Source: Ignavibacteriota bacterium (GTDB lineage Bacteria > Bacteroidota > Ignavibacteria > Tepidaquicellales > Tepidaquicellaceae). From it: a stretch of DNA of 64,000 nt. The notes under the pieces were generated by a model. It was not told the DNA's origin. It saw only the letters and a program-made list of their open reading frames with translations, and did not search any database. Location: NCBI GenBank assembly GCA_016218085.1, contig JACREY010000008.1:62001-126000 (forward strand), given 5' to 3'. Within the stretch, counting starts at the first letter, position 1; every line of letters starts with the position of its first letter. Shown here piece by piece: positions 9,775-57,638 of the stretch. A program made the position numbers and the translations under genes.

Positions 9775-10506
9775 ATGGATATTACCGCTGAAAATATCGA
9801 AAGTACTATCGCGGAGAAGTTTCCCGATTTAAAAACGGTACCGAATACGCTTTATATCGTATCCACTCCAATCGGGAACCTTGAAGATATATCTTTCCAC
9901 GCGCTCTATATTCTGAAAAATGTGGATATGATAGCCACCGAAGATACACGAGTAGCACAGATTCTGCTGAATCACTATGGCATAAGGCAGAAACTTGTAA
10001 GCTATTATTCGCAGGTGGAAAACAGCAAACTCGATTACATTACGGGATTTATTAATGAAGGAAACAGTGTTGCGCTGATTTCGGATGCAGGTACTCCGTG
10101 CATTTCCGACCCGGGAAGCATATTGGTTAACAGATGCATCGAAGAGGGAATTAATGTAGTTGCAATTCCCGGCGCAAGCTCGCTGATTCATGCACTTGTT
10201 TTGTCGGGATTCAAAAATGATAAATTCTATTTCCACGGATTCCTTCCGCAGAAAAAGGGAAGGGAAAAGACTTTTAATGAACTTAAAGATATTAAAGAAA
10301 ATATAATTCTTTTTGAATCGAAGTTCAGAATCAAGAAAACAATTTCCGAACTTGCAAAAAATCTCGGAAATAAGGAAGTTGTAATCGGCAGAGAAATGAC
10401 CAAGAAGTTCGAGGAAATTTACCGCGGCCGCCTCCGCGATATAGACGCGAACATCATAAAGGAAAAAGGTGAATTCGTTATAATAATTATGAATTATGAA
10501 TTCTGA
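9775..10506 (+). CDS. rsmI: 16S rRNA (cytidine1402-2'-O)-methyltransferase
   Basis: About 243 residues from the ATG at 9775; an in-frame ATG at 9754 would add LFTLHK-type residues that do not look conserved. The tetrapyrrole-methylase fold is clear: NTLYIVSTPIGNLEDISFHA, IATEDTRVAQILL, ISDAGTPCISDPGSILV, VVAIPGASSLIHALVLSGF, FHGFLPQKKGRE and GREMTKKFEEIYRG. RsmI makes the 2'-O-methyl of C1402 in the ribosomal decoding site using SAM. It is followed by a 165-bp stretch of short repeats before gltX. Confidence 0.93.
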   Translation: MDITAENIESTIAEKFPDLKTVPNTLYIVSTPIGNLEDISFHALYILKNVDMIATEDTRVAQILLNHYGIRQKLVSYYSQVENSKLDYITGFINEGNSVALISDAGTPCISDPGSILVNRCIEEGINVVAIPGASSLIHALVLSGFKNDKFYFHGFLPQKKGREKTFNELKDIKENIILFESKFRIKKTISELAKNLGNKEVVIGREMTKKFEEIYRGRLRDIDANIIKEKGEFVIIIMNYEF

Positions 10507-10671
10507 ATGCTGAATTATAAATGCTGAACCTTAGTTCAGCGCAGCTAATTCTGAATTATAAATGCTGAAATATGAATTAAAGCTCTTCATTCTTAATTCT
10601 GAATTCTTAATTCTGAATTCTTTAAATAGATAATTGGAAATATTACTACAGAATAAATTTTATAAAGTAAA
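10507..10671. repeat. Short degenerate direct repeats between rsmI and gltX
   Basis: A 19-bp unit (CTGAATTATAAATGCTGAA) occurs at 10510-10528 and 10551-10569, and a 14-bp unit (ATTCTTAATTCTGA) is in tandem at 10589-10602 and 10603-10616, followed by a partial third copy. The whole stretch is a patchwork of GAATTC/CTGAA words. Similar short-word patches occur at 51050-51115 and 54600-54745. No gene is visible. Confidence 0.8.
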
Positions 10672-45400: not shown

Positions 45401-46755
45401 AGATTCAGCCGCTTAAAGTCATAACCGAGGAGAATAAAATCAGCATAATTGATTCGCAAAACAAAAAAACCGGAATTACTTCGGAAGAAGTCGAAGTCCT
45501 GATTCCTTCGATGGGACATTTCAGTTCGGACGCTTTTGCGGCAGTATTCCGTTCACTCGGAATAAACTGCAGGCCGCTGGATGTTCCGTCTTTCGATACA
45601 CTCAAACACGGCAGGGGACTTACTACCTGCAAGGAATGCCTGCCTTTTATACTTACTACGGGCTCATTGACTCAGTATCTCGAAAATCATTACGACAAGA
45701 ATAAAAAAACTCTTTTCTTTATGCCAAAAGGGTACGGCCCGTGCAGGCAGGGACAGTATTACATCCTGCTGAAGGATATCATCAATAATATGAAAATCGA
45801 AAACGTGGCAGTACTTACAATGGACGACGAAAGCTCTTTCGATGATTTTGGCAATGAGTTTTTTATTAAACAGTGGATTGCTCTTGTTATAGCTGATGTA
45901 GTTCATGACATTGAATCTGTTATTAATGCTATTGCCGTTGATAAGGAAAAAAGCCTTGCAACTCTGAACGAACAATGGAATAAAATTGTCGCTTCACTCG
46001 AGAGGGGACATAACGATAGCATTTTTGCACAGATTGAATTGTCAGTGCGGGCTTTGTCAGGCATTAAACTTAAAATTCCCCTTGAAAAAGCAAAAGTGAT
46101 TTCGCTTATCGGGGAAATTTACGTCCGCAGGGAAGAGTTTTCCCGTGGAAACCTTATGCAGACTCTTGCGGAAAAGGAATTCATTGTAAAAACCGCTCCC
46201 ATAACAGAATATGTTTACTATTCAAACTACCTCCTTAAAAAGGAAATCCTGAATGGTATGTCTATGAAGGATAAAACACTCCTGCACATAAAGGATAAAT
46301 ACCAGAGAATACTCGAAAGAAAAATTAAAAAAATGTTTGCGAAATCCGGTCTGATAAAATTTGAAATGATTGACATCGATAAGACAATGGAAATAGGTGA
46401 ACGGTTCATTTCATCCGAACTGATAGGAGAGGGGATTCTGACTACAGGTCTAGCTATGAGGGAAATTCTCGATGATGCCTGCGGAGTTATTTCAATAGGT
46501 CCTTTTAACTGCATTCCGAGCCGCCTGTCTGAGGCAATACTGAAAAAGGAAATGACCATCGAGGGGAAATACAGGAGTTTGGGTATCGGTAAGAACGGAT
46601 ATCCCGAAGAAATAAAAAATCTGCCCTTCCTCTATATCGAAACGGATGGAAATGCATTCCCTCAGATTATTCAGTCTAAAATCGAAATCTTTATGCTTCA
46701 AGCGGAAAAAATCCACGAAATACTAAATAAAAAAGCAGCAATTATTCAGAAATAA
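42445..46755 (+). CDS. Fused 2-hydroxyacyl-CoA dehydratase activase / double-cubane reductase
   Basis: 1436 residues, a multidomain ATP-driven reductase. Two ASKHA/BadF-type activase domains are visible: one at about 5-255 (GICIGASTVSF, CASGTGEFFLQQIGR) and a second, more canonical one at about 298-555 (GLDVGSTTTKAVVIR, CSAGTGSFLEEAA). A Cys cluster CAGGAEKCDRKCG follows near 585-597. The C-terminal half is DUF2229 plus an HgdB-like domain with CKECLPFILTTG (about 1062) and GPCRQGQYY (about 1099), candidate ligands of a double-cubane cluster. Such proteins reduce difficult substrates with very low-potential electrons. It lies ten bases after hpnE, an unexplained pairing. The substrate is unknown. 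Confidence 0.88.
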   Translation: MAKHSLGICIGASTVSFVKTKETDGIISVLEILSYTHEGNPKKVISDFFDDFNQDKISVVVTGRKFKELINAHSVSEPEAVEVSVKYLDLNGEEKAIASLGSESFLVYNLNSKGSIDNVITGNKCASGTGEFFLQQIGRMDLSVEDTSSLSGDVIPYSVSGRCSVFCKSDCTHALNKGIPKSQVVSGLAKMIADKTIELLSKQNSKKLILIGGVTKNSGVVNHIRKSYPDLVIPPESSYFEALGASLIGLKNFFGFNREYLYKHHKHSFATLAPLKNSKNSVIFKEIIKDKPKSGDECVLGLDVGSTTTKAVVIRLNDNAILASVYLRTNGNPVQAAVNCYKELKNQILTDIKITGLGTTGSGRSIAALHALTNSVVNEIIAHAVAAAFFDKDVDTIFEIGGQDAKYTHLTNGVASDYAMNEACSAGTGSFLEEAAKETLNINYLEIGDIAFESSAPLNFNDQCSAFISSDIKNAGHEGASREDIVAGLVYSVCMNYVNRVMGNRTVGKKVFMQGGVCYNKAVPYAMANLVNKEIIVPPEPGLMGAFGVALEVKNRINLGFTKKGNFVLDELIKREFKYKNEFICAGGAEKCDRKCGIAMIEVEGKKYPFGGACNKYYNERNNLTADAGKHNYVNIRQELVFKKYLTAEINETLAEKKKIGISKSLLTNTLYPLYYNFFTKLGFGIVLPDEAETCGKDKIQSSFCYPVELSHGFFSNLLKKDIDYIFLPHITQMDSHSEHQHNRLCVFVQGETYYLKSTFREEIDNKKTPSSGKIKIISPVIDFTLPENELKEIFIDIAKELGVRKNKAVQAYEYSDGKFREMQAEFRQLGRRALEEIESSPDTFGIVLFGRSYNAFAREANLNIPHKFASKNITIIPHDFLPNDIKDSYENMYWYSGHQILSNARFVKNHDMLFGVYITNFSCGPDSFILSYFRKIMGSKPSLTLELDSHSADVGIDTRIDAAVDIIKNYIAIRNKGTKEDLSDKIQPLKVITEENKISIIDSQNKKTGITSEEVEVLIPSMGHFSSDAFAAVFRSLGINCRPLDVPSFDTLKHGRGLTTCKECLPFILTTGSLTQYLENHYDKNKKTLFFMPKGYGPCRQGQYYILLKDIINNMKIENVAVLTMDDESSFDDFGNEFFIKQWIALVIADVVHDIESVINAIAVDKEKSLATLNEQWNKIVASLERGHNDSIFAQIELSVRALSGIKLKIPLEKAKVISLIGEIYVRREEFSRGNLMQTLAEKEFIVKTAPITEYVYYSNYLLKKEILNGMSMKDKTLLHIKDKYQRILERKIKKMFAKSGLIKFEMIDIDKTMEIGERFISSELIGEGILTTGLAMREILDDACGVISIGPFNCIPSRLSEAILKKEMTIEGKYRSLGIGKNGYPEEIKNLPFLYIETDGNAFPQIIQSKIEIFMLQAEKIHEILNKKAAIIQK

Positions 46756-46765
46756 TTACTGCTTT
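46732..46765 (-). terminator. Hairpin across the activase stop codon; terminator for the minus-strand barrel gene
   Basis: AAAGCAGCAATTATT (46732-46746) and AATAATTACTGCTTT (46751-46765) form a 15-pair stem with one mismatch. Read on the minus strand it is followed by TTTATTT, so it best serves the outer-membrane gene ending at 46789, while lying inside the 3' end of the convergent activase gene. Confidence 0.65.
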
Positions 46766-46788
46766 CAGAAAATATTTGATTATAAATA

Positions 46789-47640
46789 CTAACGCTTGCC
46801 GCCTAAGTAAAACGAAACACCTCCGTAAAATCCGAAAAATCCTACTGTTCTGCTCTTGCTCATCAGCGAATTTAACGATGAGTTCGCAGCATCATTCAGG
46901 TACATATCCCCGTCACCTCCGGCTTTTACCTGGTCCGAACCCTTATTTATTAAATTAGCAATATGCATTCGTGTTCCAAAAGTTACCCCTAGATAATCAA
47001 CAATCCTGTATGAGTAACCAAGATTCAATCCCATTCCTAATCTTGTAGCGCTGACTATGTTATTATGATACTCGTAATTGTTTGAAGCCGCCTGGTCGTA
47101 AACTTTACCCCACATTACACTGAAATTGAAATCAGCCCCGAAATTGAAAATGGAACGCCTTTCTTTATCAGTATATAAAGCAATTTCCCAACCGTACGCT
47201 ATGTAAGGAGCACTTATCCTGATTGAACTTGAACCCGTTACTTCTTTTACCGATTTGTATGTCGTATCTGCAGGCCATCTGACGGGCACCATCCCTGTAT
47301 CATATACATTTCCGATATCATATGAGGTATTTTCCTTGCCATAGAAATTTGAAAAAGCAATTGTAAGGTAAGTCCTTATCTGTCCATCCTTGAAGTTGTG
47401 AACCGTAACCTTTGGTGTGTATGCCGCATAATATCCTCCGTTCACCCCGTATCCCTTGAATTCCCAGAAATCCTTTAACCTCGAACCTGAGAAATCAAAC
47501 CCGGGTAATCCGTATCCAAATGTCGCTTCCATTACTACATTGGGCTTTCTGAAAACTTTAGTGTTGAGCAGTTGTGCTGTTGTTGTCTCTGACAGGATTA
47601 ATATTAATGCCAGAAGAATAATGAAGTAATTTTTTTTCAT
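46789..47640 (-). CDS. Outer-membrane beta-barrel protein
   Basis: 283 residues with a signal peptide (about 1-22, ending TTTAQ). The mature part has alternating aromatic/hydrophobic strands typical of a small barrel (for example ATFGYGLPGFDFSGS, LGMGLNLGYSYRIVDYLGVTF) and ends in FFGFYGGVSFYLGGKR. No family is recognised with confidence. It lies between the activase and secA genes and appears to be its own transcript, with a terminator at 46732. Confidence 0.7.
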   Translation of the reverse strand: MKKNYFIILLALILILSETTTAQLLNTKVFRKPNVVMEATFGYGLPGFDFSGSRLKDFWEFKGYGVNGGYYAAYTPKVTVHNFKDGQIRTYLTIAFSNFYGKENTSYDIGNVYDTGMVPVRWPADTTYKSVKEVTGSSSIRISAPYIAYGWEIALYTDKERRSIFNFGADFNFSVMWGKVYDQAASNNYEYHNNIVSATRLGMGLNLGYSYRIVDYLGVTFGTRMHIANLINKGSDQVKAGGDGDMYLNDAANSSLNSLMSKSRTVGFFGFYGGVSFYLGGKR

Positions 47641-47789
47641 AACAGTAGTATGTTTGGTTTATGCAATTTATATAAACTTCATTTCAGACTCAAGTATTTT
47701 TTTTGAGTTAAGTCTGAATATTATAATAATAATAGTGCCTCCGCTATTATATTATCCGATGGAACAGTATTTGCTGTTCCGCGGTTCGT

Positions 47790-50700
47790 TTACTTCCCGT
47801 GGCAGTTCTTGTATTTTTTTCCGCTTCCGCAAGGGCAGGGGTCGTTTCTTCCTGCTTTCGGAGTTACTTTTACCGGCTGATGCTTGCCCGTCCTCGCTGC
47901 TGCATTTTCTTCCGGCTCTAAATTCCCGCTGTATCCCATACCCTCCGATGTGTCATGCTGCGCTCTCAGTCTGCTTGTGTTTACTTCCTTCGGACCCTTT
48001 ACCTGGCTTGCTTCTTCAGGTGTCTGTGTCGTGAACTTGAATATGAAATTAATTACATCGATTGCAATTGAATTGAGCATTGCCTCGAACATCCTGAATC
48101 CGTCCATCTTGTATTCTATCAGCGGGTCCTTCTGTCCGTATGCACGGAAGTTAATTCCCTCCTTCAAGTCGTCCATCTCTCTTAAATGCTCTTTCCACTT
48201 TTCATCGATTACGGTAAGATATGCAAATCTCTCTATCCTCTCCATCAGTTCCGTGCCGTATCTTTTTTCCTTCCTGTTGTAAAAATCTTTTGCTTCCTTG
48301 ATGATTAAATCTTTTAATCCGACTTCTCCTAACTGCTGGAATTTTTCCGGCGTAAGGTTCAGTCTTACTAAAAATGTCCTGTTCACTTCATCCTGCAAGC
48401 CCTCTATATCTGCTTCTGCGTGGTATTTGTTTACCATCTCGACTACGTTCTTTTCCACCATTTCAAATACTTCATCTTTCAGTCTTTCTCCCATCAGTGC
48501 CTGTCTTCTCTTGTCATAAACCACTTCTCTCTGCTGGTTCATCGTGTTGTCATATTCCAGAAGTCTTTTACGTATAGCAAAATTGTTTTCTTCCACCTTC
48601 TTCTGGGCGCGCTCGACTGAATTCGTAATCATCTTGTGCTCGATTGCCTGTCCCTCTTCCATTCCGAGCCTCTGCATCGCCCCTGCAATCCTCTGGCTTC
48701 CGAAAAGTCTCATCAAATCATCTTCCAGCGAAATAAAGAACCTCGATGAACCCGGGTCGCCCTGACGTCCCGCTCTACCGCGCAGCTGCCTGTCTATACG
48801 CCTTGATTCGTGCCTCTCTGTACCCATTATATGCAAACCGCCTGCTTCAGCTACTCCCGGTCCTAATTTAATATCCGTTCCGCGGCCTGCCATATTCGTT
48901 GCAATTGTTACCGAGCCCGGCAATCCCGCATTCGCTACTATCTGCGCCTCGCGCTGATGCTGCTTCGCATTTAATACTTCGTGAACTATACCGCGCCTCT
49001 TGAGTAGTCTGCTGATTGTTTCCGAAACTTCAACGCTTGTCGTGCCGACAAGCACAGGTCGCTTTATTTCCTGCATCTTTGCAATTTCTTCTATTACTGC
49101 ATTGTATTTTTCTCTCTTGGTCTTGTAAATCTGGTCGTTGTGGTCTGTCCTTACACAGGCAACGTTTGTTGGAATAACCACTACATCCAGCTTGTAAATA
49201 TCCCAGAATTCCGCCGCTTCCGTTTCAGCTGTTCCCGTCATACCTGCAAGCTTCTTGTATAACCTGAAATAATTCTGCAATGTAATAGTCGCAAGTGTCT
49301 GCGTGTCTTTTTCTACCTTCACGCCTTCTTTTGCTTCTATTGCCTGATGTAGCCCTTCGGAGTATCTTCTTCCGTGAAGTATGCGCCCCGTGAATTCATC
49401 CACTATCATAATCTTTCCGTCCTGTACAACGTACTCCACATCCTTTTCATAAAGCGCGTATGCTTTTAAAAGCTGGTCAACCGTGTGAAGTCTGTCCGAA
49501 CGCTCTGCATATACCTTGTTCAGTTCTTCACGCTTCATTTCTTTCTGCTCTGTAGTTAAACTCACATCATTCTCGATAACTGCTACCTGTGAGCCCATAT
49601 CGGGCAGTACAAAGAAGTCTCTCTCCACAGATGAAGGAGCAAGGTACTCTCTGCCTTTTTCCGTTAAATCAGTTACGTGTGACTTTTCTTCGACAACAAA
49701 ATAAAGCTCATCATCCACAACGTGCATATTTCGCCCCTGGTCACGGTTGAAATTCATTTCCGTGTCCTGCATCAGCTTCTTGTGATTCGGGTCGGATATT
49801 ATTTTCTGAAGTTTCTTGTGTTTCGGAAGTCCTTTGTAAGAACGGAATAAATACAATCCCGCTTTTTCAATATCATCCTTGCCTGGATTCTCTTCCGATA
49901 AAATCTTTTCTGCCTCCGAGCAAAGCGTATTCACGTAGCTTCTCTGTGCATCTACTAAACGCTTTATCCTGACGTTCATCTCGTTGAACTTATGTGTCGG
50001 CGCTTCTACCGGACCTGAAATTATTAGCGGTGTTCTGGCTTCGTCTATCAATACCGAGTCAACCTCGTCAACTATAGCATAAAAATGCCTTCTCTGAACA
50101 AGGTGCTCCTTATCCACTACCATGTTATCCCTCAGGTAATCGAATCCGAATTCATTATTCGTTCCGTATGTAATATCGCAGGCATACATTTCTCTTCTCT
50201 TATCCGAATCCATATCGTTCAGTATCACGCCCACTTTCAACTTGTGGAATCTGAAAATCTCGCCCATCCATTCGCTGTCGCGCTTTGCAAGGTAATCGTT
50301 CACAGTAACAAGATGGCATCCTTTTCCTGCAAGTGCATTCAGGAAAAGAGGGAGCGTTGCAACCAGTGTTTTACCTTCACCCGTTGCCATTTCGGAAATC
50401 TTTCCCTGGTGCTGTACCATTCCGCCTATCAGCTGTACATCGAACGGAATCATATTCCATCTTACCTTCGTACCGCCTGCTTCCCATTCCTGACCGCAAA
50501 GTCTGCGGCAGGTATCTTTCACCACTGCAAAAGCTTCCGGCATTATCTCATCGAGCGAATCGTTTATAATCTGAAAATAATCCTTTTCCAATGCATCGAG
50601 TTCATCATAAACTCCCATTCTCTCGTTATGCTCCAGGTCTTGCGTAAGCTTTTCCCTTAACTCTGCTATTTTTGCTTCCGCCTCGGCGGTATTATCCTTT

Positions 50701-50858
50701 ATTCTTTGCTTTAATTCCTGTGTCTTTGCGCGGAGTTCATCATCGCTAAGCTTCTGATATTCTTCGTAATAATTATTTATTTCCTCTACATAAGGTAAAA
50801 GTAACTTGACATCCTTCTCGTGCTTCGATGGAAATAATTTTGAAATTAACTTAAGCAT
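47790..50858 (-). CDS. secA: Protein translocase ATPase SecA
   Basis: 1022 residues. DEAD motor 1 starts with the Walker [15 protein letters not shown] and has [21 protein letters not shown]; motor 2 has [28 protein letters not shown] and [14 protein letters not shown]. The C-terminal zinc motif [15 protein letters not shown] is intact and serves SecB or ribosome contact. SecA drives Sec export, the step that delivers T9SS substrates to the periplasm. An insertion with charged helices near residue 300-390 is normal for Bacteroidota SecA. The start has no SD. Upstream begins the repeat-rich island 50859-51386. Confidence 0.97.
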
Positions 50859-50952
50859 TCTGTCTTAATTTATTTATATTTTAATTAATTAATATTTATA
50901 TAATTACACTTTATTTTTTTGTAATTTACGTTCTTTGTATCCCGACTTATAC

Positions 50953-50980
50953 CTCGTTCCCAACGTCCTCGTTGGGAACG
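50953..50980. repeat. Palindromic element, copy 2 (GTCCTC loop)
   Basis: CGTTCCCAAC (50955-50964) and GTTGGGAACG (50971-50980) pair perfectly with loop GTCCTC. The copy at 12141 has A-T where this has C-G at the loop-proximal pair, so the stem is conserved by paired change. It lies between secA and the REP-like block. Confidence 0.8.
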
Positions 50981-51136
50981 CATATTGCACAATATAAACC
51001 TTAAAATAACCTTTTTTTCATACAAAATGAATGCAAAAGAGCGGAATACAGAAGACAGAAGTTAGAAGTTAGAATCTGGAAGTTAGTAGTCAGAATTCAG
51101 TAGTCAGAATTTAAAATGCTCTCCAACCATATTGTC

Positions 51137-51220
51137 ATCCCCGCATGTGCGCTCTTTGCATCCGCCGTGGCGGAATTTTGGCGGGGATCGCGCTCTTTGC
51201 ATCCCGACCCGTCGGGACCG
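51137..51220. repeat. REP-like palindromic block with 15-bp direct repeats
   Basis: ATCCCCGC/GCGGGGAT (51137-51144 and 51181-51188) enclose the palindrome TCCGCC-GT-GGCGGA (51161-51174). A second stem, TCCCGAC/GTCGGGA, is at 51202-51217. GCGCTCTTTGCATCC occurs at 51149 and 51190. A related word, CGTTCTTTGTATCCCGAC, is at 50929 and a third relative with only T/C changes is at 54126. The structure resembles intergenic REP/palindromic elements of other bacteria. Confidence 0.8.
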
Positions 51221-51386
51221 GCGATTTTTAGGTCGAAGATGCGCCGAAGAGTGCCGGAATCCAATTTAATCATTGTAAAAACCTTTTTTCACTAAAAAAG
51301 TATGCAAAAAACAAGGAAAGGAATGAAATAGCTTTTTCCTTACTGTATAACAGTAAAATTTGATGGTTTAATAATTAATTAATTTA

Positions 51387-53372
51387 TCATTTAATTAAAA
51401 CCATTTTTTTCGTCGCTGTATATTCTCCGGAAATCAATTTATAAAAATATATACCACTCGGAAATGAGGAAGCATTCCAGTTTGCCTCATAAATTCCTGG
51501 AAGCATTTTATTATTTAAAAGCGTTGCAACTTCTCGACCAAGTATATCAAATATTTTCAAATTCACATTATTTTCTTTTGTTATTTGAAATTTTATAAAT
51601 GTATTAGGATTAAAAGGATTAGGGTAATTTTGATACAGATAGTATTTATTCGGTATTTCTTGTGAAATATTGTTAATATCTACTGATGGTGCATAAACAA
51701 TATCCAGACTCCAGTTCAGTAATGTACCCGTATTACCAGTTCCATTATCCAAAATTTTTAGTATCCAGTTGCCAGATAATTCTTTTCCTTGTAATCCCAA
51801 AAGCGGAGTTTGAGGTCTGTATCTTCCGGTGAATGGTGGTGTACCTTGAGTAATAGATAAATTTGCACTGTCATCAAAAATTGTATTTGTAAAGTTTTGT
51901 CCACCTTGCCCATTGTATTTAGATAAATCAACAGTATTAGATTTTGTTAAACTTATCCATAGATTTCCGTCATTTGTATGGGTTAAATTTAAATTTACAT
52001 TGACATCCACAACAGTTCCCGGAGTTAATATTTTTATTGTATCCAATGTAAGCATTCCGGTTATTGGTTTTGGAACACTATTTGATTCTGAACTAATATT
52101 ATTCCAAATTGTATAAGTAAATAATTGAGTGGGAGGATTCGTTCCGGGAGGATTTAATCCTCCACCTCCTTCCGGTAAAGTAAATACAAAAGTACCGGTC
52201 GAATCTTGTGCAGCTATATAATATGAAATTTTTGAACCTTTTGGAAAACCGGGTATATAAAATTTATATATGTTTTGATAAATGCTAAACGAATTTACAT
52301 AATAATAATTTCCGCTCCAGTTTTTATAATATAGTCTTGGGGCATTGATTCCTGTCCCTAATGTATTGGGGTAATTAATGTAGACTTCAGCTAATCTTTG
52401 TGTTGTGTCATAATTTGACCGTAAAGGTGTATGATCCATTCTGGCAAAATTTCCGCTGCCCCATGAAGCAAATGTTGTAATTGCAGTTTTTGCCATTTTA
52501 TTAAAAAATTGCAGATTAAATGTATTAACTAAATCGGATTTTTTATGAATATTCTGATTTAATGTGTCGAATGTATCTTCTATTAATAAAATTGCTTTGT
52601 AGTTTTTGTTTATAAATGATGCCTGATCACTTGTTGTTGAATAGACTTTTCGATAAATTAATCCTGTTTGATAAATTTGTGTCGCGATAATCATTTGTTC
52701 TGCCAGCTTATTTGAGTTTGAATCAGTAAATACATCATATTTATTATCATTGTTTCCATCCCAAGCAGTCATATCAAGATTTAAAACACCCCTTATTGTA
52801 TCACCTCTGTTAAAAATTGAATCAACATATGCGATACTGCCTCCAAAACCTGCTTCTTCCTTGTCAAAAGTTGCGTAAATTAAGCTGTATGGAAAACTAA
52901 AATTTGAAAGTAATCTTGCAGCTTCCAATACTATACAAACACCCGATGCATTATCATCGGCTCCGGGTACTGTGTCGGTTGGGGTCGGCATTGGAACTAA
53001 TATTGCATCATAATGAGCACAAATAATGAAATACTGATTTGGATATTTGTATCCTGTTTTTGTTCCAATAATATTTAAACAGGTAATGTCATTTTGCTGA
53101 TACCTTGCATTTAAACCGTAGTTTTGAAATTTTTCAAAAATATATTGTGCGGCTTTTAATTTTGAACTCGATAAATAAAATCTTGAGAAGATTCGATAAT
53201 GTGAACCCCCAATAAATGCAATTGTATCTCCTGTTAAATCTTTAGCAAATTTCATCAAAGATTGAGTGGAAACAAGGTTTTTGATCGAATCGATTTTATT
53301 ACTATATATTATTTGAGGGTTGCTGCAGTTTGAACAAAATAAGAACAAAATAATAATAATTATTTTTTTCAT
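51387..53372 (-). CDS. Secreted M28-family zinc peptidase with P domain and T9SS sorting domain
   Basis: 661 residues with a Sec signal (about 1-20, FLFCSNCSN). The M28 metallopeptidase domain has CAHYDAI (His120), DTVPGADDNASGV (Asp139/140) and DKEEAGFGG (Glu172/173) as zinc ligands. A proprotein-convertase P domain follows (about 420-560; LTLDTIKILTPGTVVD, NDGNLWISL), then the T9SS domain YQNYPNPFNPNTFIKFQ to TATKKMVLIK. It is exported to the cell surface and probably acts as an aminopeptidase. Base composition is visibly more AT-rich than secA and the genes after 54853, hinting at separate origin. Confidence 0.87.
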   Translation of the reverse strand: MKKIIIIILFLFCSNCSNPQIIYSNKIDSIKNLVSTQSLMKFAKDLTGDTIAFIGGSHYRIFSRFYLSSSKLKAAQYIFEKFQNYGLNARYQQNDITCLNIIGTKTGYKYPNQYFIICAHYDAILVPMPTPTDTVPGADDNASGVCIVLEAARLLSNFSFPYSLIYATFDKEEAGFGGSIAYVDSIFNRGDTIRGVLNLDMTAWDGNNDNKYDVFTDSNSNKLAEQMIIATQIYQTGLIYRKVYSTTSDQASFINKNYKAILLIEDTFDTLNQNIHKKSDLVNTFNLQFFNKMAKTAITTFASWGSGNFARMDHTPLRSNYDTTQRLAEVYINYPNTLGTGINAPRLYYKNWSGNYYYVNSFSIYQNIYKFYIPGFPKGSKISYYIAAQDSTGTFVFTLPEGGGGLNPPGTNPPTQLFTYTIWNNISSESNSVPKPITGMLTLDTIKILTPGTVVDVNVNLNLTHTNDGNLWISLTKSNTVDLSKYNGQGGQNFTNTIFDDSANLSITQGTPPFTGRYRPQTPLLGLQGKELSGNWILKILDNGTGNTGTLLNWSLDIVYAPSVDINNISQEIPNKYYLYQNYPNPFNPNTFIKFQITKENNVNLKIFDILGREVATLLNNKMLPGIYEANWNASSFPSGIYFYKLISGEYTATKKMVLIK

Positions 53373-53428
53373 AAGTGTAAATAAATAATTAATAAAAATA
53401 TCTATACCTGGCTTAATTAATTATTAAT

Positions 53429-53713
53429 TTATTTATTACCGCATTGCTGTAATATATTACAATTCATACCAATAGGCGGTGACCAATTATTAATTTCCCA
53501 AGCACAATAACATTGCTGAAAAGAAATTGTTATTTCTTGTTCTATTCCATTTTGAATGCAAAACCAGGACCAATATTGAGCACTATAATATCGCGGATCC
53601 ATACTATTGCAACAAGGAAGTGGGTCAGATTTTTTTGCTATAGTAGTATTTATTGTAAAAAATATTGGAAGTGTCAGAATTGCAATTAATAAAAAAGAAG
53701 TTAATATTCTCAT
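53429..53713 (-). CDS. Small Cys-rich secreted protein (94 aa)
   Basis: The ATG at 53713 is preceded by a perfect AAAGGAGG SD sequence ten bases upstream, so it is chosen over the much longer frame (start 53911) that has no SD. The product has a signal peptide (MRILTSFLLIAILTLPIFF, then about 27 residues) and a 67-residue mature part with seven Cys: PLPCC, WFC, QQCYC, MNC and QQCGNK. Such Cys-rich secreted peptides are often disulphide-bonded and can be bacteriocin-like, adhesin-like or structural. I recognise no family. It lies 56 bp upstream of the peptidase gene on the same strand and the two may be co-transcribed. Confidence 0.7.
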   Translation of the reverse strand: MRILTSFLLIAILTLPIFFTINTTIAKKSDPLPCCNSMDPRYYSAQYWSWFCIQNGIEQEITISFQQCYCAWEINNWSPPIGMNCNILQQCGNK

Positions 53714-53971
53714 AAATCTATATCCTCCTTTACTTTGTAAACCAGGTATAGAATGATTTAATATTTTTATATTAGTTACTAAATTTGATATAAGTATAAA
53801 TATATATTTCGAATTATTCAAGTAAAATATTTTAAACAAAACAAATAAAAAATGAGAATTTTCTAAATTATTACATATTATGGTTCTATACGTTAATATG
53901 AACAAGTTCATTGAGAATTGTTTTCGTGCCTTGGTGTTGAATCTCTAAAAACCTAACTTGACTTTTAAAAT

Positions 53972-54023
53972 TATATACCATATATTATTAAGGTATTACC
54001 TGTTCTATGACATATGGTATATA
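53972..54023. repeat. 12-bp inverted repeat
   Basis: TATATACCATAT (53972-53983) and ATATGGTATATA (54012-54023) match perfectly across a 28-base loop. It lies in the gap upstream of the Cys-rich protein gene. It could be a regulator site or the end of a small element; no T run makes a terminator unlikely. Confidence 0.6.
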
Positions 54024-54125
54024 GTTGTACCCCATTCTGTACTTTTCCGCTCTCCGGTACAGAAAGTACAAAAAAATCCTTTGATTACCGTCAGATTTCC
54101 GCATTTTGTACCAAAACTGTAGCAT

Positions 54126-54161
54126 GCGTTTTTTGCACCCGCCGCGGCGGGAAACTGGTGC
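54126..54161. repeat. GC-rich palindrome related to the REP-like block
   Basis: GCACC (54135-54139) and GGTGC (54157-54161) flank the self-complementary CCGCCGCGGCGG (54139-54150). The first 25 bases match 51149-51173 with four T/C differences. It is followed by GATTTTTC on the plus strand, so it may also act as a terminator. With the block at 51137 it brackets the peptidase/Cys-rich pair. Confidence 0.7.
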
Positions 54162-54205
54162 GATTTTTCTTAATTTTTATGTTATTTTTGTAAAAACAAT
54201 TTGTT

Positions 54206-54598
54206 ATGGAAAAAATAATGAAAATATTTCTTGTACCGCTGCTGTTTTTGATTTTCTCCGTTTCTGCATATTCAAAAAATGTTACACCGCTCGATTCCGC
54301 AATGAAGGAAATCACAGGTGAACTTGAATCAAAAAAAGGCAAGACAATTAAAGTCAGCATTTCATCCCAGTCATTACTGCCTGAACCGGGCACAAGCGGG
54401 ACTCTCTCAAAATACTTCGAAGAGGAAATACTCGGTATGAACACCCACGGCTATATCAGCCTTGCGGAAGTGGAAGTTAAATCTGTTAACGAAAACGAAA
54501 TAGTCTTTACAGTCATTAAAGAATTGACAAATGTAAAAACAAACGGCAAAAAAGAAAACCTCTTTAAAAAGGGATTTATCGTAAAGTTTTACTGGTAA
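54206..54598 (+). CDS. Small secreted protein of unknown function
   Basis: 130 residues with a signal peptide (about 1-23, SVSAYSK) and a mature part of mixed beta strands (SAMKEITGELESKKGK, LSKYFEEEILGMNTHGYISLAEVEVKS, IVKFYW end). A second ATG at 54218 gives a shorter signal (MKIFLVPLL). No family is recognised. It is preceded by the GC-rich palindrome at 54126 and followed by a 254-bp low-complexity gap. Confidence 0.6.
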   Translation: MEKIMKIFLVPLLFLIFSVSAYSKNVTPLDSAMKEITGELESKKGKTIKVSISSQSLLPEPGTSGTLSKYFEEEILGMNTHGYISLAEVEVKSVNENEIVFTVIKELTNVKTNGKKENLFKKGFIVKFYW

Positions 54599-54599
54599 C

Positions 54600-54745
54600 T
54601 CTATTCAATGAGTAATGAATAATGATTAATGATTAATGATTAATGATTATTGAACAATGATTAATATATATAATAATCAAAATCTCTTTCCCGCACTTGC
54701 GATTTACTTTATACTTTTTACTTTATACTTTATACTTTACCATCT
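54600..54745. repeat. Tandem short-word repeats in intergenic gap
   Basis: The gap holds repeated TTAATGA words (about 54618-54650) and repeated CTTTATA words (about 54708-54740). Neither codes. They resemble the short-word patches near 10510 and 51050 and may reflect slippage or remnants of mobile repeats. Confidence 0.75.
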
Positions 54746-54852
54746 TTCACGCTCTTGCTTTTATTCTGACTCCTGTTTTCTGATAACTTACTGATTAAAA
54801 TGATACTCACTTCAAAATACATAGTTTTTATTCAGCAATTCCGCTATTTTCA

Positions 54853-55965
54853 ATGCCTATGAAAAAAAGTTTTTATATATTTGCAATTGCGACAGTCGTG
54901 CTTTTTGCAGGGTGGGGCAGTACAGGTCACAGGATAATTAATAAAAGAACAAATTTATCTTTTCCTTCTGCAATGTCTCCGTTTTCCTGGTTTCCTGATT
55001 CTATGTCTGTGCACGCTTCAGATGCAGACTATCGGAAAAATACTGACCCGACAGAAGAATTCAGGCATTATATCGATATCGAATTCTATCCCGAATATCT
55101 TTCAGGCGGCAGGATTCCCCAGACGTGGGATTCTCTCGTTGCTCTCCACGGACTGAATTTTGTAATTAATAACGGATATGTGCCTTTCGCCATCATAGCA
55201 ACTGCAGATTCAGTGAAAAAATATTTTCAGCTTCGTGACTGGAGAAAAGCTATGCTGAAAGCCGCTGACCTCGGACATTATGTCGCAGATGCTCATAATC
55301 CGCTTCATTGCACGCGGTATTATAACGGCTGGAGCACAATGTCGAACGGAATACACTCACGCTATGAAACTACGCTTATAAACCGCGATACGGCTTATAT
55401 CCAGTACACGGGAAATAACGTTAATTACATAAATGATATTAATAATTTTGCCTTTGGCATTGTTTATAATTCAAACAGCTACCGCGATTCGGTTTACCGC
55501 GCTGACAGCATCGCTCAGGTGATAGCAGGAAGCAACAGCAGCACTCTTTATTATCAGAATTTCTGGTATCAGGCAGGAACTTTTACCATTCAGAAATTCA
55601 AGGATGCATCGTACAAACTTATGTGCCTTGTCTATACTGCGTGGGTGAATGCCGGAAGCCCCGTACCGACCGGAATAAACGGCAATAGCAGTATAGTGGA
55701 AGGATTCAAGCTTCATCAGAATTATCCGAATCCTTTCAACCCGAAGACCAATATAAGGTTTTCAGTTCTGAAACCCGGCGATGTGAATATAACTGTTTAT
55801 GACATCAGCGGCAAAACTGTAAAAACTCTTTTTAACGGGTATAAACAGGCAGGGGAATATGAAGTTATTTTTGATGGTGAAAAATTATCTTCTGGTGTGT
55901 ATTTTTACATAATGACTGCCGGAAATGGCTTCAGGGAAACAAAAATTATGACATTAATAAAATAA
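54853..55965 (+). CDS. S1/P1-nuclease-like secreted protein with T9SS sorting domain
   Basis: 370 residues. A signal peptide (about 1-19) is followed directly by the zinc-dependent S1-P1 nuclease/phospholipase C fold: GWGSTGHRI with the N-terminal Trp21 and His26 as zinc ligands, HASDAD, HYIDIE, the core motif LGHYVADAHNPLHC (about 140-153) and GIHSRYE. These carry the expected zinc His and Asp residues. The C-terminus is a T9SS sorting domain, HQNYPNPFNPKTNIRFS to RETKIMTLIK. It is exported to the surface, where it could degrade nucleic acid or phospholipid. It is followed by a ferredoxin gene with which no functional link is seen. Confidence 0.85.
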   Translation: MPMKKSFYIFAIATVVLFAGWGSTGHRIINKRTNLSFPSAMSPFSWFPDSMSVHASDADYRKNTDPTEEFRHYIDIEFYPEYLSGGRIPQTWDSLVALHGLNFVINNGYVPFAIIATADSVKKYFQLRDWRKAMLKAADLGHYVADAHNPLHCTRYYNGWSTMSNGIHSRYETTLINRDTAYIQYTGNNVNYINDINNFAFGIVYNSNSYRDSVYRADSIAQVIAGSNSSTLYYQNFWYQAGTFTIQKFKDASYKLMCLVYTAWVNAGSPVPTGINGNSSIVEGFKLHQNYPNPFNPKTNIRFSVLKPGDVNITVYDISGKTVKTLFNGYKQAGEYEVIFDGEKLSSGVYFYIMTAGNGFRETKIMTLIK

Positions 55966-55994
55966 TTATAATAAATAAATAAGGAGAATATAAA

Positions 55995-56327
55995 ATGGCT
56001 ATAATGATAACCTCGGAATGCATCAACTGCGGCGCCTGCGAGCCCGAATGCCCGAATACTGCAATCTATGAAGGCGGCGCAAGCTGGTCGCTTGCCGGAA
56101 AAGACTATGGAGACGGCGAAGCTGCTCCCTCAGGTGCGGAAGGTTTTTTCTCTAATGATTTTTTCTATATCGTGCCCGATAAATGCACCGAATGCAAGGG
56201 ATTCCACGATGAACCTCAATGCGCGGCTGTGTGCCCGGTTGACTGCTGCGTTCCTGACCCGAATCACGTTGAAGACCTCGATACCCTGATGAAAAAGAAA
56301 GAATATCTCGACGGCTTAGGTAGGTAA
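55995..56327 (+). CDS. Ferredoxin, 2[4Fe-4S] YfhL-like
   Basis: 110 residues. Two cluster motifs are visible: CINCGACEPECP near the N-terminus and CTECKGFHDEPQCAAVCPVD, both with the extended spacing of the Chlorobi/YfhL-type ferredoxins. An AAGGAG SD sequence lies a normal distance before the ATG, unusual in this genome. It would carry electrons in low-potential reactions. Its end overlaps the convergent lspA gene by 12 bp. Confidence 0.92.
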   Translation: MAIMITSECINCGACEPECPNTAIYEGGASWSLAGKDYGDGEAAPSGAEGFFSNDFFYIVPDKCTECKGFHDEPQCAAVCPVDCCVPDPNHVEDLDTLMKKKEYLDGLGR

Positions 56328-56969
56328 TTCCTGCTTGCGCTCTGGTTCCGCCGGTATTGATTCCGTCTGAACCGGAACTTCTTCCTGATTAATAATTTGC
56401 AAGTCGGAGGGTTGCTGCTCTCCGGCTTCTTTATTATTGAATATTTTTTTGTAACCGATAAGAATCATAACAAACCCCGCCGACACGGCTATATCCGCTA
56501 TATTGAAAATCGGCCACGAATAAAATACCTTGCCGAATATTTTTATGTCGGGTATGTTAATCTGGAAAAAATCAACTACGTTTCCCCGTAATAGTTTATC
56601 GCTGCCGTATATTACTCCGTAGAATATCCTGTCTATAAGGTTTCCGATGGCACCGCCCAAAATCAGTGCCAGCGAAATTCTCAGGTAAAGTATTTCTTTC
56701 CTGTTTTTATATATAAAGTAAACAATGAAGATACTTGCAATGATGGTAAAAACAGACCTGAGCTGCTTGCTTCCGATTTCAAGTCCGAAAGCCATCCCGG
56801 GATTTTCGATGAAAGTAAGCCTGAAAAAATTATCGATTATATCGATAGTCTCTCCCGGCTTCATTCCCTTTGTTACAATACCCAGAGATGGAAGGTTTAT
56901 TCCCTTTACAAGGAATTTGCTAACCTGGTCTATAATTACGATTGCTAACGAAACAAATAAAATTCTCAA
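56316..56969 (-). CDS. lspA: Lipoprotein signal peptidase (SPase II)
   Basis: 217 residues, longer than usual because of an acidic C-terminal tail of about 40 residues. Four membrane helices and the catalytic Asp pair are clear: VIIDQVSKFLV at the start, GNLIDRIFYG and NVVDFF, then FNIADIAVSAGF. It removes the signal peptide from diacylglyceryl-modified prolipoproteins; three such lipoproteins are in this window. The start is TTG at 56969. It follows dksA by six bases in an ileS-dksA-lspA order, a variant of the widespread ileS-lspA pairing. Confidence 0.92.
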   Translation of the reverse strand: MRILFVSLAIVIIDQVSKFLVKGINLPSLGIVTKGMKPGETIDIIDNFFRLTFIENPGMAFGLEIGSKQLRSVFTIIASIFIVYFIYKNRKEILYLRISLALILGGAIGNLIDRIFYGVIYGSDKLLRGNVVDFFQINIPDIKIFGKVFYSWPIFNIADIAVSAGFVMILIGYKKIFNNKEAGEQQPSDLQIINQEEVPVQTESIPAEPERKQELPT

Positions 56970-56975
56970 AATATG

Positions 56976-57638
56976 TTATCCCCGAAGATTTTTACATTCA
57001 ATGCAGTGCTGGGTTATCGGAACAAGCTCGAGCCTTTCCCTCGGAATGAGCGGACAAGTATTGCATAAATACTTCGGCTCTTCAATGCAGTCTATGCATA
57101 GTCCGTATGTTCCCTGGTCGATTCTGGTCAGTGCTTCCTGAATGTAACCGAGATATTTTTCGTCGCGCTGAACAAACATATAATTCTTTTCTCTTTCCAT
57201 CTCGTCCGTACCCTGTTCTGCCATATGGGTTGAATATGTAAGGTTTTCACCTACATAGTCTCCCGATTCATCGTCTACGAGTGATTTCATATTTGCTTTT
57301 GCGCTTTCCAGGATGTCCCTTCTTTCGTTTAGAAGTATTTCCTTGAAGTGCTGAAGCTCAGCGGGAGTGTATCTTGTTTTACCGCTTTTTCTTTTAAGCT
57401 TTTTCTTCGGCTCCGGTGCCTTGACAGCCTGCTTTTTTACAGGTGCCGCTTTCTTAACCTTTACGGTCTTCTTCGGCTTCGGTGCTGCCTTTGCTTTTAC
57501 GGTTTTCTTTGCTTTCAAAACCTTCGATTTGGAAACCGCGCCTTTTTTTACGGCCTTTGATTTCCCGGATGCTGTCTTTTTGGGTTTTGCAGCAGCCTTT
57601 TTTGGTTTTTGTTTCGTTTTTTGTACCTTCTTTTTCAT
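56976..57638 (-). CDS. DksA/TraR-family protein with H1-like basic tail
   Basis: 220 residues. The first 90 are a Lys/Ala/Pro-rich tail with KKA, KKTV and KPKK repeats, like histone H1 C-termini; the conserved part begins at about 90 with TPAELQHFKEILLNERRD, a coiled coil, and a C-terminal zinc region. Six Cys are visible in three CxxC pairs at 181/184, 192/195 and 212/215, two more than the usual four. DksA-type proteins bind RNA polymerase through the secondary channel and tune initiation; the basic tail suggests DNA or RNA binding. AAAGGAG precedes the ATG. It lies between ileS and lspA. Confidence 0.88.
   Translation of the reverse strand: MKKKVQKTKQKPKKAAAKPKKTASGKSKAVKKGAVSKSKVLKAKKTVKAKAAPKPKKTVKVKKAAPVKKQAVKAPEPKKKLKRKSGKTRYTPAELQHFKEILLNERRDILESAKANMKSLVDDESGDYVGENLTYSTHMAEQGTDEMEREKNYMFVQRDEKYLGYIQEALTRIDQGTYGLCIDCIEEPKYLCNTCPLIPRERLELVPITQHCIECKNLRG

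Follow-up and report, generated by a model that had tools for sequence, protein, structure and literature searches.

The sequence analysed here, referred to as the window, is a stretch of 64,000 nucleotides (nt) from the draft genome of an Ignavibacteriota bacterium (3.31 Mb in 22 contigs; C21:62001-126000; G, C and L numbers are our labels for genomes, contigs and loci, this genome being G000). Next to secA the window carries several palindromes, among them copies of a short repeat, element B, one of which sits in the hairpin loop of another repeat. A preliminary description had placed this palindrome block after secA; since secA is on the minus strand, the block is instead upstream of the secA start (50858) and not 3' of the gene. 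The features of the region are given below (REP, repetitive extragenic palindromic sequence; RAYT, REP-associated tyrosine transposase; T9SS, type IX secretion system).

47790-50858, minus strand: secA, with its start at 50858
50927-50945, plus strand: relic of element B, TAC-GTTCTTT-GTA then TCCCGA, right arm missing, class A palindrome next
50952-50982, plus strand: class A palindrome, a REP of the RAYT type, with a perfect hairpin at 50955-50980
51049-51113, plus strand: degenerate 7-nt tandem array, units AGAAGTT / AGAAGTC, from Tandem Repeats Finder
51132-51188, plus strand: class C palindrome, a REP-like hairpin tagged TGTC whose loop holds element B, from folding and from empty forms elsewhere
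51148-51174, plus strand: element B copy 1, 27 nt, whose excision leaves a class C hairpin
51189-51217, plus strand: element B copy 2, 29 nt, with a palindrome at 51202-51217
51387-53372, minus strand: AT-rich M28 aminopeptidase with a P-domain and a T9SS sorting tail (PF04389 at 7.5e-29, PF18962, PF01483, TIGR04183)
53429-53713, minus strand: small Cys-rich peptide, 94 amino acids (aa), 7 Cys, with an N-terminus judged by eye to be signal-peptide-like
54125-54151, plus strand: element B copy 3, 27 nt, a structure-conserving variant whose nearest copy in the genome is L200 (2 mismatches)
54206-54598, plus strand: orphan protein g54206, 130 aa, found in 3 of 29 family genomes (G000, G001 and G015)
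54853-55965, plus strand: T9SS-tailed protein, with homologues in G001 (close to the ferredoxin gene) and G005 (between secA and the ferredoxin gene)

Element B is a mini-hairpin, YGC-GYTCTTT-GCR, directly joined to a stable hairpin, TCC...GGA; the shortest copies are 27 nt long and the longest about 50 nt. It was characterized in 105 copies, a convenience sample drawn from fetched loci of eight genomes, in which G000, G001 and G005 account for 82. The sample excludes copies with less than 25 nt of sequence on the left or 60 nt on the right, repeated occurrences of one context and 10 heads that lacked a hairpin. The stable hairpin is mostly TCCGCC-GT-GGCGGA or TCCCGA-n-TCGGGA with a variable loop, and nearly all copies have GCATC or GCGTC as the tag in front of it, G standing for A in 19 of the 105. 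The relic head at 50928 differs from GCGCTCTTTGCATCC at three positions and has the mini-stem TAC/GTA. A scan for perfect hairpins gave just two stems with a GYTCTTT loop, and the idea that such loops are a general rule in hairpins of these genomes was rejected.

Heads of element B occur five times in the window when up to three mismatches are permitted, compared to 1.29 expected (1 of 100 shuffles was as high), and the head GCGYTCTTTGCATCC with at most one mismatch has 29 matches in G000 (1 in the reversed control), some few of which lack the B hairpin. At least one head was present in 14 of 29 family genomes, G000 included. Several of these have one or two matches, no more than reversed controls give, and B is therefore secure only in the eight examined genomes with at least three, which belong to three genera and have 3 to 48 matches each. 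In G000, 26 of 28 copies lie outside open reading frames (ORFs), and 9 of the 21 copies whose two neighbouring genes are resolved sit between convergent genes. Element B is a dispersed, mostly intergenic repeat. Literature searches listed no paper naming it; one of its strings occurs in four papers, and the three of these that were listed deal with unrelated subjects.

The base at the start of B covaries with the one that precedes TCC. Of the 105 copies, 80 have T-A, 18 have C-G and 7 another combination; copy 2 in the window, with C...A, is one of five C-A exceptions. The 98 paired ends were reached by none of 20,000 within-genome shuffles, and the pattern is also seen when each left hexamer is counted once (T-A 43, C-G 9, other 4). 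Among 29 distinct 29-nt forms of B there are 6 double-changed cells compared to 2.0 in shuffles, 0 of 500 being as high. The outermost pair of the stable hairpin changes in the same manner, from T-A to C-G, in four copies, including the one at 54126. Such paired changes, by which the structure of B is maintained, together with its intergenic position and the copies between converging genes, would also suit an immobile B: a hairpin of RNA or DNA, conserved by selection in many intergenic gaps for a terminator-like, mRNA-stabilising or protein-binding role, its place in loops and arrays being a by-product of tolerance. We consider this improbable: no Rfam family matched in a search of 46700-57000, and selection on a motif gives no reason to expect an intact host hairpin or an exact array phase once it is removed, as is found for B in the cases described next.

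The hosts of B are frequently repeats themselves. Among the 105 sites, 41 are arrays or direct repeats, 19 are class C loops and 6 are other palindromes; hosts outside class C include a class A-like REP (L242) and the palindromes CCACGACTT/AAGTCGTGG and CACAACAT/ATGTTGTG. Flanks with a direct-repeat score of at least 7 were found at 39% of the sites compared to 2.4% after permutation, and flanking inverted repeats at 19% compared to 2.3%. The mean direct-repeat score was 1.9 for the first 23 copies from other genomes (0.7 permuted) and 7.1 for G000 (1.8 permuted).

Class C, the host of copy 1, has the form TTGTC-ATCCCCGC-loop-GCGGGGAT, with a stem of 8 bp and a loop of 9 nt, followed by CTCG or a similar string in the copies read. 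Empty class C hairpins gave 75 matches in all eight genomes searched, 18 of them in G000. In the window the outer stem, ATCCCCGC/GCGGGGAT, lies within 51137-51188 and its loop holds further hairpins; the predicted fold of the single strand 51128-51190 consists of the outer stem and two inner hairpins (z -2.27). The predicted fold of 54120-54170 is no better than shuffles (z 0.06). The short class C string alone, with up to three mismatches, has two matches in the window compared to 1.80 expected, which is not above chance.

Excision of B at its exact ends was compared to known empty hairpins for 15 of the 19 class C-hosted copies, using 34 empty forms out of the 75 matches. The excised host was identical to an empty form in five cases (all in G005), differed by one mismatch in four, by two or three in five and by eight in one. 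Shifted cuts gave 5-12 mismatches, with a single exception of 2. Removal of 51148-51174 from the window leaves a class C hairpin one mismatch away from an empty copy in G000. A comparable result was obtained for the arrays in 19 of the 105 sites, those whose flanks passed a period cut-off set by the analyst. Cutting out Y plus GCG...GGA restores the 7-, 8- or 9-nt period with a mean junction identity of 0.755, compared to 0.716 with a base trimmed from the opposite side instead, and 0.29-0.44 for the eight remaining cuts. The cut that includes Y was the sole best in 13 of the 19 sites and tied in 2.

As excision restores both array phase and empty class C hairpins, B sits within other repeats without target duplication. 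Many copies are inserted at a single point in REP hairpin loops or in 7-, 8- or 9-nt arrays, and host bases are neither duplicated nor lost where this can be tested. Insertion of the IS200/IS605 type produces no target duplication, and B shows this property in periodic arrays and in class C hosts. A variable-length target duplication made by B itself was considered and rejected; the flanking repeats are better read as 7-, 8- or 9-nt arrays that were already there and that regain their phase on clean excision.

The recognised hosts of B being repeats, it could also have spread among them by replication slippage or template switching, with hairpins and short arrays copied into one another and no transposase involved. 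Local duplications of B plus flank at L007 and L215, and the similarity of the class C loop (ATGTTCTTA) to the B loop, agree with this. However, the exact ends of B are identical in unrelated host sequences, and a covarying terminal pair is not expected from slippage, which we hold to be an unlikely origin that nevertheless deserves some weight.

The clean insertion of B, the motif 5' of its hairpin and the covariation of a base in that motif with an end base recall Y1 HUH elements, and mobility by way of a Y1 protein is proposed for these reasons. We regard the following account as the probable one, with considerable reserve: the gap beside secA is variable, dispersed repeats have landed on and beside each other in it and genes were added stepwise; B is a non-autonomous REP-like unit moved as single-stranded DNA by a Y1 HUH transposase acting in trans; and the M28 and Cys-rich peptide genes are a separate, recent gain. 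The transposase would be of the IS200 or REP type. GCR, the triplet on the 5' side of the stable hairpin, would be the guide: by pairing with YGC at B's own 5' end it would set the cut, and the strand would then be joined into exposed single-stranded targets (loops, slipped arrays) at WTN^.

Work on IS200/IS605 and REP systems describes a guide beside the hairpin that is complementary to the cleavage site (PMC6006769, PMC8266576), as proposed for B. In one REP system (PMC8266576), a substrate with GTGG for GTAG was cut at CC, as pairing predicts, and the CA cut persisted. This exchange, A to G with T to C, is the same as that between the T-A and C-G ends of B. The Y-R covariation is what would be expected if the guide selects its own cleavage site; plain hairpin conservation fits it as well. 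Cleavage of B by a Y1 HUH protein is suggested by analogy with these systems. A bolder version, put forward tentatively as one that may well prove wrong, is that B is an orphan mobile unit, often shorter than 30 nt, with terminal and guide bases that co-evolved (T-A or C-G) and so form a natural record of guide-directed cleavage, with the loops of other REPs and slipped arrays as single-stranded landing sites and IS200-type Y1 proteins acting in trans.

Several observations weigh against transposition by a Y1 protein or against its details. In a scan of 36 loci, no Y1 or RAYT gene proved to be flanked by B on both sides. The nearest cases are L215 (G020 C4:171427-172079), where an IS200-type Y1 gene lies about 230 bp away from two copies of B in a local duplication, and L104 near 2143 (G000 C12), where one diverged B-like copy (2 mismatches) in a TTAACTTC array lies about 500 bp to one side of a Y1 gene. 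The canonical GTAG guide is absent from B. Twenty-five of the 105 sites have no recognised palindrome or direct repeat and 14 more have weak ones, and the target preference is weak, with T at -2 in 92 of 104 sites and little else. No orthologous empty B site was found at base resolution, the empty hairpins being paralogous copies. The covariation could be explained by plain hairpin maintenance or by descent of two subfamilies; in the 29 distinct forms, pairs changed on both sides (1) and further pair types (6) were not above shuffles (1.0 and 5.9).

Comparison with known repeats places the three palindromes differently. Class A has the form CCTCGTTCCCAACG-TCCT-CGTTGGGAACGCA, with 2 occurrences of the pattern in the window compared to 0.00 expected and 21 palindromes with exact arms genome-wide (0 in the reversed control). 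It lies on both sides of a RAYT gene (C3:1787-2323, L107), like GTAG-tagged REPs and REPINs with their RAYT (TnpA-REP), and the encoded protein matches the NCBIfam REP-associated tyrosine transposase NF047646 at 106.9 bits (cut-off 80). Class A was also found near a sub-threshold Y1 match (20 bits) at L334 in G001. No GTAG or GTGG guide was seen beside the hairpin foot in the class A copies read, with no systematic test made. Element B is similar to GTAG REPs in size, intergenic position and a short motif 5' of the hairpin; it differs in having neither GTAG nor GTGG, in its extra mini-hairpin and in the absence of a B-flanked RAYT from the 36 loci.

A study of CGTC/TGTC-tagged REPs (Di Nocera 2013, PMC3733652) describes a stem starting with AT, a loop of 4-5 nt and a superfamily without a dedicated transposase. 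Class C agrees in its TGTC tag and in its AT-starting stem of 8 bp, within the 8-9 bp of the group, and differs in its 9-nt loop and the lack of a CCA tail. B seems to share the absence of a dedicated transposase, but its tag is mostly GCATC, and R is G, as CGTC requires, in only 19 of the 105 copies. The same source lists REPs inside other palindromes (GTAG-15, GTAG-23 and CGTC-1; PMC3733652). B resembles these as a small palindromic repeat within another palindrome and differs in using several host palindrome families and tandem arrays, and in having exact ends defined by comparison to empty class C copies. B departs from IS200/IS605 elements in carrying no gene and in lacking a strict target tetranucleotide.

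Cyanobacterial small dispersed repeats (SDR; Elhai 2008) are reportedly very small, mobile-looking and without a gene of their own; B is like them in its tiny size and in having no gene. The spread of REPs and of still smaller dispersed repeats is poorly understood. B offers exact ends, many full and empty host sites, loop targets and a covarying pair predicted to set the cut, and the guide idea is therefore testable with short oligonucleotides and a few Y1 proteins. Element B, probably a further form of small REP-like mobile DNA, is a more interesting object than the island proposed earlier for this region.

In that proposal, the M28 gene, the Cys-rich peptide gene and the flanking palindromes had been gained together as one palindrome-bounded unit. 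The nested palindromes on which it drew do exist (50952-50982, 51137-51188, 51202-51217 and 54125-54151), class A and B heads being above chance in the window, and the 25-nt match between 51149 and 54126 has exactly four differences, all T/C, as described. These differences are not special: two fall at variable pyrimidines, one is a T to C accompanied by A to G across the hairpin, and one lies in the GT apex. The gain of a unit draws support from the two genes, which stand out in composition and were not seen next to secA in the relatives examined. However, the palindromes are copies of genome-wide repeat families, the copy at 54126 is closer to L200 than to 51149, the gaps of 16 relatives contain no such palindrome, and other extra genes of the interval have different histories. 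The palindromes were consequently rejected as ends of a unit, and a joint gain appears very improbable. The region has neither matching ends bounding a cargo nor a matching empty site, as would define a genomic island or composite transposon, and an empty site with a single palindrome, suggested as support for a gain, was not seen in relatives. This is important to note because nested palindromes beside an accessory gene need not be island ends. A search of the window found no tRNA, and therefore no tRNA-type integration site is present in it.

What remains of the idea of DNA gain concerns the two genes themselves, which are plausibly recent arrivals. They are AT-rich, and the composition profile makes both outliers. 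The M28 gene has the lowest GC (0.311) and third-codon-position GC (GC3; about 0.21) of the 38 ORFs of at least 200 aa in the window, compared to a GC of 0.43 for its paralogue elsewhere in the genome, and the GC3 of the Cys-rich peptide gene is 0.179. The pair is not a standing neighbour of secA across the clade: the Cys-rich peptide and the M28 catalytic part are both absent from 103 fetched loci of relatives (101 with secA), where short M28 matches are to the C-terminal T9SS tail only, for example beside secA in G015. Best relatives of both sit at other places in other genomes. The Cys-rich peptide had no match in Pfam, NCBIfam, PHROG or plasmids, and weak homologues (31-38% identity) in 3 of 58 other genomes searched; M28 had a single weak match to phage records, 33% over 24% of the query. 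Both genes were probably acquired in a separate, recent event.

Divergently oriented secA and ferredoxin genes lie 153-1523 bp apart in 16 family genomes; G010, G025, G013, G002 and G033, in which no ferredoxin gene was found beside secA, were left out of this set. Twelve of the 16 gaps have no ORF of at least 80 aa and the other four have one gene each, all different, compared to 5.1 kb and four genes in G000. A first hairpin scan of the gaps required stems of at least 7 bp and misses short B hairpins, so the gaps were rescanned for A, B and C palindromes, which are absent from all 16. A looser scan gave one unpaired C-like string (G014), one A-like half-site (G005) and nothing else. G001, which belongs to the same genus, has both g54206 and the 54853 homologue near its ferredoxin gene, together with an ORF containing several CxxCH motifs and a second T9SS-tailed protein; the contig ends there, with the secA side outside the data, and the genes shared with G000 have other genes between and beside them. 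G005 has the 54853 homologue only. Since g54206 and the 54853 homologue occur near the G001 ferredoxin gene amid other genes, the region accreted in steps. The secA-ferredoxin interval is probably a variable site, filled by stepwise addition of genes and by small dispersed repeats that landed on top of and beside one another.

A copy of B is present in the ferredoxin-lspA gap of G001 (L087), and the same two genes overlap in the window; this suggests that B comes and goes in that neighbourhood, the two gaps not being alignable base by base. Class A palindromes with a second hairpin in the loop were seen at L107, 1229-1275 (G000 C3:1728-1774), with TGTCCCGAAACATCGGGAT, and at L209 (G000 C15:4940-4986), with CCGCCACGGCGGA; these inner hairpins resemble B hairpins and lack a normal B head. 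At L103 (G000 C16:67500-70500), tandem AAACCCCGTAGGGGTTTCCTGTTAATAG hairpin units precede an IS200-type Y1 gene. A strong Y1 match (E <1e-20) was present in 8 of 8 B-bearing genomes compared to 1 of 6 B-free ones, with a threshold chosen post hoc and genomes that are related.

Degenerate arrays of 7-nt units are found at five places in the window, 10485-10528, 10584-10622, 51049-51113, 54607-54665 and 54705-54739, with different units (AATTATG, TCTTAAT, AGAAGTT, AATGATT and TACTTTA, respectively). Stretches similar to the array at 51049-51113 were seen at L011 and L013, and many copies of B are surrounded by comparable 7- and 9-nt arrays. An inverted repeat, ATATACCATATAT / ACATATGGTATAT, lies at 53966-54029 in the AT-rich gap upstream of the Cys-rich peptide gene. 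Finally, the M28 start has TATACCTGG upstream of it and the Cys-rich peptide start has the inverse, CCAGGTATA (53403-53411 and 53742-53750, respectively), a pair that is possibly a shared control site of the two genes.

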